Of a DNA stretch of 33,284 nt, positions 13,588 to 17,029 are shown in pieces; the stretch's first letter is position 1, and each line of letters starts with the position of its first letter. The notes below the pieces were generated by a model. It saw only the letters and a list, made by a program, of their open reading frames with translations, was not told the DNA's origin and did not search any database. Location: contig JAQVHC010000003.1 in the NCBI GenBank assembly GCA_028696435.1, forward strand, positions 1-33,284. Reading direction: 5' to 3'. This stretch comes from Actinomycetota bacterium (GTDB taxonomy: Bacteria > Actinomycetota > Humimicrobiia > Humimicrobiales > Humimicrobiaceae). The translations under genes and the position numbers were made by a program.

Positions 13588-14550
13588 CTAAATTTTATCT
13601 GAATTAAATTTAATTTTAAAATATTTTAATGCATATTCAATATCAAGCTTTATACGTTTCACCAATTCATCTTTGTCATCAAATACCATTTCATCCCTTA
13701 ACTTCTCTAAAAAAGTGATTCTAATTTTTTTATTATATATATTACCACTGAAATTCAGCAAATAAACTTCGATTCGCTTTCCTGATTCTTTAAATGTAGG
13801 GTTATCTCCAACATTAATCACAGCTGGAAATATTTTTTCTTCTTCATCAATAAAAACTTTGCCGAGATAAACACCATCAGCAGGTATTACATATAACTCA
13901 CATATATCAATATTTGCAGTTGGAAATCCAAGCAGTCTTCCTCTGCCTGCACCCTTTGTAACAACTCCATCGATCTGTGGATTTCTTCCCAGTAGATTTG
14001 ATACCTCTCTTATCCTGCCTTCAGAATAATATCTCCTTATAGCTGTGCTTGATACTATTTTACCCTTTACCTTTAGTAGAGGTACTACATTTACTTTAAC
14101 ACAGTAAGACTTTAAAAAATTTTTAAGAAACGACACATCTCCTGCAGCCTGGTAACCAAAACGAAAACCCTCACCCACAAAAATTTCTCTTATACGAAGT
14201 TTGTTTACAAGAATATCCCTGCAGAACTGTTCAGGAGTTAATTTTAAAAAATCTGGATTGTTATCAGCAATTATTATACAGTCAACACCCATGGCATCTA
14301 TAATTTTAATTTTTTCTTCGAAAGGAATTATAAGCTTTTTAAATGTATCATTTCTAACTACATTAACCGGTGGTCTGTTAAAAGTTAAAACCATGCTGCT
14401 ACAGTTCACCGCTCTTGCTCTATCAGCACAGTCATTTATTATTTTTTTGTGGCCGAGATGAACACCATCAAAAAACCCTATAACCACTATAGAATTCTTG
14501 AACTTAAAATTTTCTTCATCTATCTTTTCTAAATCCAATAGCTCCGCCAA
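13588..14550 (-). CDS. ribF: Bifunctional riboflavin kinase/FAD synthetase
   Basis: 320 aa; IGFFDGVHLGHKKII, VGEGFRFGYQAAGD, STAIRRYYSEGRI, GRGRLLGFPTANI. Confidence 0.95.
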   Translation of the reverse strand: MAELLDLEKIDEENFKFKNSIVVIGFFDGVHLGHKKIINDCADRARAVNCSSMVLTFNRPPVNVVRNDTFKKLIIPFEEKIKIIDAMGVDCIIIADNNPDFLKLTPEQFCRDILVNKLRIREIFVGEGFRFGYQAAGDVSFLKNFLKSYCVKVNVVPLLKVKGKIVSSTAIRRYYSEGRIREVSNLLGRNPQIDGVVTKGAGRGRLLGFPTANIDICELYVIPADGVYLGKVFIDEEEKIFPAVINVGDNPTFKESGKRIEVYLLNFSGNIYNKKIRITFLEKLRDEMVFDDKDELVKRIKLDIEYALKYFKIKFNSDKI

Positions 14551-14612
14551 TTATCTGCCGGCTCCCTTTTAAAAAATTAAATTTTTAATGGAACAAATAA
14601 ATATTAAACTTT

Positions 14613-15661
14613 TTAATCCACTCCATCACCAAAAGCTATTATACTTTTTGTTAGTTCTTGTTTTATTTCAACCATATTCTTAACCCTATCACCTGCATCA
14701 TCACCTGTATCACAAAATATTTTTTCACTTATAATTTCATGCACCGCAAGCAGGTTTGCGTTGCTATCCAGTATATTAACAAAACTCCCCTTTTTAAATA
14801 AACCGCCTGTATTACCAGTCAATCTCTTTTCTATCATTTCCTCTGTAACAGGGCATCCATTTTTAATAGAATTTATGTATCTATTCTTTACATAAATATT
14901 CTCCATTTTTTCCGATAATCTTTCCAGAGGTACTATATATGGAGCTGGCTTCATATATTCTTCTACAGAAATATGACCCTCAAGCACATTCCTTATAAAA
15001 TCCTCTACACTGATACTATCTTCCAGTTTATAATCGTTAATCGATGTTCTTTTTAACTCTTTTAAAGAAGCTCCTGTTCCGAGCAAACCACCGATATCAT
15101 AGGCCAGTGATCTTATATATGTACCGGAACTGCAGTTTATTTTTATTTCGACTAAATCCTTTTCAATAGAGATAAGCTCAAGATTATAAATATTTACTAT
15201 TTTTGGTTCTAACTCTAACCTGTGTCCCTTCCTTGCCAGCCTGTAGGAAGGACTCCCTTTATATTTTACTGCTGAATACACCGGTGGTATCTGTTTTATT
15301 TTACCTTTAAACTTATTAAGAGCATTTAATACTTTGTCTTTATCTATATCCTCAACTTTCTTCTCAACCAGAATCTTTCCACTGAGATCCCATGTATCTG
15401 TAACCACTCCCAGCTTTAGCTGTGCAATATATTCCTTATTTAAAGTTAAAAAATATTTGAATAATTTAGTGGCTTTATTTATTAATATAATAAGCAGACC
15501 TTCTGCTGCAGGGTCCAGAGTTCCTGCATGGCCAATTTTTTTTAAAAAAAAACTTTTTTTAACTTCCGTATAACATCATAAGACGTTACAGCCGGTGGTT
15601 TATTTATTAATAAAATACCGTCAAAATCCTTTAGATAATCTGACTTACAGCTTCTATCCAT
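14613..15661 (-). CDS. truB: tRNA pseudouridine synthase B, split by a -1 frameshift at 15536-15560
   Basis: Frame A (15661-15542): MDRSCKSDYLKDFDGILLINKPPAVTSYDVIRKLKKVFF*. Frame B (to 14613): LKKIGHAGTLDPAAEGLLIILINKATKLFKYFLTLNKEYIAQLKLGVVTDTWDLSG... Together they give the canonical TruB N-terminus with the catalytic GTLDP motif. The ORF track shows only 14613-15407. Confidence 0.9.
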
Positions 15662-16655
15662 TGTCTATGCTTTCCTTAACTGAATTTTTTAAATTATTTA
15701 TTACAGTTCTCAGGCTTCCTCTATCAGCATATGCAGAAGCCATTTTGTGTCCCCCACCATTAAATTTACTTGCAATCGTGAAAAGATCAATGTTGCTATC
15801 AGAGGTTCTAAGACTAATTTTAAAGCACCTTTTCCCGGTCTGTTTAATTAAAGCAGCGACTCTTACTTTCTCTGCGCTTCTCAGTAAATTAATGATCTCA
15901 TCCTGGGCAGAAAAAGGTAAATTTAATTTTTTAAAATCTTTCTGCAAAACATAGGAATATATAAGACCGGTAGAAGGCACGAACTCAATTCTCTGAAAAA
16001 CAATCTGTATCAGCTTAAATCTCTCCAGAGGCTCACTCTCATATATATATTTACTTATCTTAGAAGGATTTACATTAAATTTAAGCAATTCACTTACTGC
16101 TTTATGAACATCAGAATTTGTATTGCTGTATTGAAATTTTCCTGTATCAGTCAGTATTCCAACATAAATGCCCTCAGCTATTATATCATCCATCAGACCC
16201 GGGTAATTGCAAGATATAAGTTCATACAAAATCTCTGCAGTTGCTGATTTTTCTATATCCACAACATTCAGGTTACCAAAATTGGTATTATTATAATGAT
16301 GGTCAATGTTTACTATATATTTAAAATTATCTTTTAATTCTTTAAAATCCAGATTCATTCTGTACTCATCAGCACAATCAAGACAGAAACATATATATTG
16401 CCCATTATTATCAGATTCTTTTATTTTCTCAAAGTTTTTACAAATCCTGTCAATATGGGGTAGAAATTTATATTGATAGGGGATTTCACAGTTGCAAACA
16501 GGCAGTACTTCCTTCTTGAGTAGAATTAGTAACTGATAAAGTGCTATCTGTGAACCTAATGAATCACCATCGGGACAATCGTGGGTTATAATTACAAATT
16601 TATTATTAGTATCTATAATTTTTGATATCTGACTGTATAAATTATTTACATCCAA
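15654..16655 (-). CDS. nrnA: Bifunctional oligoribonuclease/PAP phosphatase NrnA (DHH family)
   Basis: 333 aa; ITHDCPDGDSLGSQIAL, CLDCAD, IDHHYNNTNFG, FNGGGHKMASAYADRG (DHHA1). Confidence 0.92.
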   Translation of the reverse strand: MDVNNLYSQISKIIDTNNKFVIITHDCPDGDSLGSQIALYQLLILLKKEVLPVCNCEIPYQYKFLPHIDRICKNFEKIKESDNNGQYICFCLDCADEYRMNLDFKELKDNFKYIVNIDHHYNNTNFGNLNVVDIEKSATAEILYELISCNYPGLMDDIIAEGIYVGILTDTGKFQYSNTNSDVHKAVSELLKFNVNPSKISKYIYESEPLERFKLIQIVFQRIEFVPSTGLIYSYVLQKDFKKLNLPFSAQDEIINLLRSAEKVRVAALIKQTGKRCFKISLRTSDSNIDLFTIASKFNGGGHKMASAYADRGSLRTVINNLKNSVKESIDNG

Positions 16656-16660
16656 TTATA

Positions 16661-17029
16661 CTAACCTGCTTGCTGCCTCTTGTCTTTTTCCAGATCATCA
16701 AGTATTTTTGATACCCTTATACCGGTGTCTATGGATTTATCATATAAAAACTTTATGCTGGGCACACTCCTGAGCTTTAATCTCTGTTGTAGATTTCTCT
16801 TTATAAATCCCTTACAACTATTCAGGCCTTCAAAACTTCTTTTGATCTCATCTTCATCGCCCATTATGCTTATAAAAACATCCAGCCACTTAAAATCTAC
16901 TGATAATTCCGCACCGGTAACAGTCACAAACCCTATTCTTGGATCATTTACTTTTGTATTAATTATAAAACTGATTTCCCTTTTTATATCTATCTCGGCT
17001 TTTTTTATTCTATCCACTTTAAACACCAC
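16661..17029 (-). CDS. rbfA: Ribosome-binding factor A
   Basis: 122 aa; RIKKAEIDIKREISFIINTKVNDPRIGFVTVTGAELSVDFKWLDVFISIMG; RSVPSIKFLYDKSIDTGIRVSKILDDL. Confidence 0.93.
   Translation of the reverse strand: MVFKVDRIKKAEIDIKREISFIINTKVNDPRIGFVTVTGAELSVDFKWLDVFISIMGDEDEIKRSFEGLNSCKGFIKRNLQQRLKLRSVPSIKFLYDKSIDTGIRVSKILDDLEKDKRQQAG

Follow-up and report, generated by a model that had tools for sequence, protein, structure and literature searches.

The truB gene of the GTDB family Humimicrobiaceae (Actinomycetota) is, judging from its sequence throughout the family, almost certainly a recoded gene. On the chromosome truB lacks one base for an open frame, immediately ahead of the part that encodes the catalytic domain, and genomes across the family have inherited and retained this arrangement. 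Complete TruB is probably made only when RNA polymerase, or alternatively the ribosome, slips on a homopolymer run nine or more bases long, and transcriptional slippage there is the favoured reading, with a probability of about 0.7. The window, which is the whole stretch of DNA analysed, has 33,284 nucleotides (contig JAQVHC010000003.1, positions 1 to 33,284, forward strand) and belongs to assembly GCA_028696435.1 (G000), a 1.32-Mb metagenome-assembled genome in 152 contigs that has a single truB.

In the window truB lies on the minus strand, and its 0 frame (15542..15661), read directly from the sequence, opens with the ATG at 15661 and runs for 39 codons (MDRSCKSDYLKDFDGILLINKPPAVTSYDVIRKLKKVFF) to a TAA at 15544-15542. 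The ORF upstream on the same strand (15654..16655) extends 8 bases into the start of truB (ATGGATAG). The tract in the coding strand is built by A7 (15554-15560), a G, T9 (15544-15552), which is the proposed slip site, and A8 (15536-15543). The full frame, from 15661 to 14613, requires a -1 shift, or one additional base in the mRNA, at the T9 run, after which it continues as LKKIGHAGTLDP until the stop at 14613. This -1-frame continuation (14613..15545, minus strand, 310 codons and the stop) contains GHAGTLDP, which matches the GHxGTLDP motif with the catalytic Asp, and the rest of the enzyme, so that the joined product has 349 aa. Direct reading thus agrees with the first-pass annotation, made from the window alone, which had proposed a -1 break of truB at A7-G-T9-A8 with the UAA at the tract, a TruB with its catalytic-Asp motif restored by a single -1 slip and, without the slip, a 39-aa peptide and a downstream frame whose first listed start is the GTG at 15407, past GTLDP.

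The joined protein scores 231.3 bits against the TruB equivalog model TIGR00431 and aligns to it from position 2, and the downstream half alone scores 202.5 bits, both above the cut-off of 151.45 bits. The gain comes with the 0-frame ORF, which supplies the N-terminal NKPxxxTSYDVIR segment of TruB, while the downstream half also matches the PDB TruB structures 1r3e and 1k8w. An internal start for the downstream half was rejected, because the -1 frame has no ATG, GTG or TTG from the tract to GTLDP and the upstream half is constrained.

The gene was compared in 30 genomes (14 genera) of the family and in 17 outgroup genomes, which include four f3 genomes and one f2 genome from the same class, and the frame was measured as the number of nucleotides from the conserved TSYD codon to the KIGH codon. 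This distance is 47 nt in 29 of the 30 family genomes, which represent 13 genera and all need the same -1 shift, and 48 nt, hence in frame, in the remaining one (G010). In the outgroups it is 48 nt, or 51 in one of them, and truB is a single open frame in all 17, as had been expected of TruB in general. The shared one-base offset (29/30 in the family against 0/17 in the outgroups) is far beyond chance. A search of 396 Actinomycetota genomes for T9 followed by GHxGTLD found 29, all of them inside the family. The nearest relatives that have a name come from unrelated projects and are Actinomycetota bins, which include Ca. Hydromicrobium americanum and Ca. Calidifonticultor daggyaiensis. An intact frame in relatives that have no slippery tract had been named as the outcome that would speak against recoding; the relatives have the tract and the broken frame.

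Family genomes have one truB each, with two partial matches in G025. Five others (G014, G016, G023, G028 and G032) have no TruB match, probably because their bins are incomplete, although the completeness of G028 is put at 92%. Two genomes, G036 and G039 (L035 and L036), have an insertion within the TruB_N domain and hence two Pfam matches each; a split TruB by frameshift was rejected there, since the insertions are in frame.

The sequence of the tract itself has changed repeatedly within the family clade, while the offset has stayed at 47 and the longest run has never fallen below nine. At least nine identical bases are found at the site in 30/30 family genomes: T9 in 25, T10 in four (G002, G004, G017 and G025) and A9 in one. 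The last is G007, in which the T run is gone and an A9 plus TTCTTAG stands in its place, with the offset still 47; this A9 occupies the position equivalent to the A7 run of the window. Both flanking A runs vary among relatives, and the A8 run is probably not essential. The tract is displaced by one base in genera g9 and g13, and the residues that follow it vary among the family genomes. The 0-frame stop, which may be TAA, TAG or TGA, falls exactly at the slip tract in the window, as first described, but this is not a general feature, because it lies a few codons past the tract in g9 and g13 and further still in G004 and G012. Likewise, the tandem heptamers, the UAA and the hairpin, proposed together as the site, are present in the window, but what the family conserves is a homopolymer of nine bases or more.

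The V/I-F-F-L residues encoded there demand some of the T bases of the T9 run and so account in part for its length. Phe is encoded by TTT in 220 of the 267 Phe codons in the downstream half of the family genes, so a tract made up wholly of TTT is only a slight surprise, and the replacement of T9 by A9 in G007 carries more weight.

In the proposed mechanism, RNA polymerase would slip on the T9 run, or on A9 in one genus, as the 9-bp RNA:DNA hybrid re-aligns, and a mixed pool of truB mRNAs would be produced. Messengers one base longer or two bases shorter would be translated into full-length TruB, of 349 aa here, while the templated mRNA and the remaining slippage products would yield the 39-aa peptide or short dead ends. 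The slip site may also set a low or conditional level of TruB, a step that is less certain than the slippage. Transcriptional slippage is favoured by four observations taken together: a run of at least nine, the avoidance of nine-base runs in coding sequence, the lack of frameshift stimulators and the in-frame state of the other runs.

Run statistics were obtained from genome-wide pattern counts and from the window sequence. G000 has 445 A/T runs of exactly eight, 35 of nine and none longer, with overlaps counted. All 35 T9/A9 runs were inspected and truB alone breaks a reading frame, so that slippage as a general habit of this genome was rejected, the other 34 breaking no frame. The A9 run of cinA at 2776 keeps its frame, as the first reading had it. 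In the coding sequence of the window (about 30 kb) a single run of at least nine was observed where about 8.5 were expected, and none of 300 synonymous-codon shuffles was as low. In-phase heptamers in coding runs of seven and eight are about as frequent as expected (17 observed and 16.9 expected for A, 4 and 4.7 for T). Polymerase-prone runs are thus purged from coding sequence, whereas ribosome-prone heptamers are tolerated, and replication slippage could be an alternative cause of the avoidance of nine-base runs. Baranov et al. found that selection against bacterial slippage runs starts at nine in many genomes (PMC1088944), and the RNA:DNA hybrid has a length of 9-10 bp, which matches a run of nine (PMC5009743).

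Near L095 1501 (G000:C116:2863-2871) a coaBC-like ORF opens with TTTTTTTAAAAAAAAA without a preceding ATG and comes after an rpoZ-like ORF in a different frame. A TTG start is plausible for it, and it is probably an ordinary case.

Programmed -1 ribosomal frameshifting, in which the P- and A-site tRNAs would slip back on U_UUU_UUU (A_AAA_AAA in G007), is rather unlikely but has points in its favour. A perfect in-phase heptamer (T_TTT_TTT, or A_AAA_AAA in G007) can be read in every family tract, so the ribosome could do the same and the argument for slippage of the polymerase is not a proof; a stop follows directly in most genomes. G000 could also form a hairpin just 3' of the site, TGCAGG-N10-CCTGCA (15507..15528, minus strand). 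Against this mechanism, the run is never shorter than nine in the 30 genomes although seven would be enough for the ribosome, which favours transcriptional slippage, coding sequence shows no avoidance of in-phase heptamers in runs of seven or eight bases, and in some genomes the stop lies away from the site.

Frameshift stimulators also fail to appear. The hairpin had been correctly noticed in the window, but folding of the 30 family genomes rejected it as a conserved element 3' of the tract, and it is probably incidental: z-scores of the 60 nt downstream, compared with shuffles, scatter near zero and reveal no common fold among structures without pseudoknots. No consistent SD-like element was found upstream in the 30 genomes, where the duplex with the anti-SD ranges from +0.2 to -7.1 kcal/mol and is essentially missing in G004, G007, G009, G013, G019, G025 and G029, and an SD-type stimulator was rejected because of this inconsistency. 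Rfam gave no match in 14500-16700.

The history of the frame bears on phase variation, in which the genomic tract would switch in length by replication slippage and truB would be on in some cells. A maximum-likelihood tree of TruB unites the family in a single clade (support 99/96), with the in-frame G010 nested among its frameshifted members (97/85). The frame state changes twice in total on this tree, and none of 500 shuffles was as low. With G010 nested in the family, the simplest account is that the ancestor of the family lost the frame once and that G010 regained it. The truB of G010 (L043, L104) is in frame and yet keeps T9, on a contig that begins about 35 codons before GTLDP; it is probably a natural frame restoration, a case that rests on one assembly. 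Mononucleotide tracts are the classic phase-variable loci and the in-frame T9 of G010 would suit such switching, but 29 of the 30 assemblies are off in one direction, where switching would give a mixture, and truB is a housekeeping gene, related neither to the surface nor to defence, so phase variation is very improbable.

A homopolymer error of sequencing or assembly, with truB intact in the cell, would be a natural suspicion for such a tract when the genome was assembled from a metagenome into 152 contigs. The recurrence of the one-base offset in 29 genomes, which span 13 genera and stem from several unrelated projects, the constancy of this offset while the tracts differ (T9, T10 and A9), and the in-frame state of the other coding runs of nine in G000 leave it practically no room. 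Among the three explanations first offered for the break, the error is therefore excluded and recoding upheld, with transcriptional slippage fitting better than the ribosomal form.

Both halves of truB are under purifying selection. Pairwise dN/dS is 0.11-0.23 in the downstream half, and in the upstream half dN is well below dS, a rough estimate on about 32 codons per pair. Besides the frame break, the downstream frame has no inactivating change across the family. Decay of a truB inactivated by the frameshift in the family ancestor, for which the broken chromosomal frame would speak, has accordingly almost no probability, given the constraint on both halves, the depth of the family without further inactivation downstream and the strong equivalog match.

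Since the run is mutable and a gain of one base restores the frame, and yet only one of the 30 genomes has been restored, the out-of-frame state is probably favoured or at least harmless. Slippage may, as a guess, limit the dose of TruB, perhaps depending on the supply of nucleotides. A more specific proposal, which is tentative and slightly less probable than its opposite, is that polymerase slippage would act as an obligatory and heritable control of TruB dosage, possibly sensitive to UTP/ATP, with selection opposing the frame-restoring indel. A neutral account, by which an early deletion was tolerated through slippage and then left unrepaired, is possible but fits less well with so mutable a tract. 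Few chromosomal genes are known whose sole full product depends on slippage and which are conserved over deep time, and the persistence of the broken frame here makes it testable what a cell might gain from rationing TruB in this way. Annotation of the family will report truB as a pseudogene or as two fragments.

Among known systems, prfB is an essential-pathway gene that is out of frame across a wide clade and gives its full product only by recoding, through an autoregulatory +1 programmed ribosomal frameshift at CUU_UGA with an SD stimulator. The truB gene resembles it in obtaining its full product by recoding only, over a broad clade, and differs in having neither CUU_UGA nor the SD stimulator. 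By sequence the enzyme belongs to the same family as other TruB proteins (TIGR00431, PF01509; PDB 1r3e, 1k8w), whose outgroup genes are single ORFs.

The dnaX gene of Thermus thermophilus is also a cellular housekeeping gene, and its run of nine A/T is a known site of polymerase slippage (PMC1088944, PMC5009743). In dnaX, however, the full-length product comes from the templated frame and a second useful one from slippage, while only a 39-aa peptide comes from the templated frame of truB. Shigella mxiE (cited in PMC5009743) reaches an extended functional product through transcriptional slippage, and encodes a type III secretion regulator, in contrast to the family-wide housekeeping enzyme TruB. 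In the AT-rich genomes of Buchnera and Blochmannia, polymerase slippage at poly(A) rescues broken frames, with 12-50% of transcripts corrected (PMC5009743). The frameshifted genes in question are those of insect endosymbionts with reduced genomes, whereas truB belongs to environmental bacteria and is one gene with the same offset over 13 genera, in which the run has moved from T to A with the frame unrestored. Slippage at nine A/T and recoded cellular genes (dnaX, mxiE, IS elements, Buchnera, Blochmannia) were thus already known (PMC1088944, PMC5009743), and no earlier report of a recoded truB was found in the literature searched, which covers few subscription papers. The truB of this family is best filed as an unusually well conserved case of the already known slippage and recoding type.
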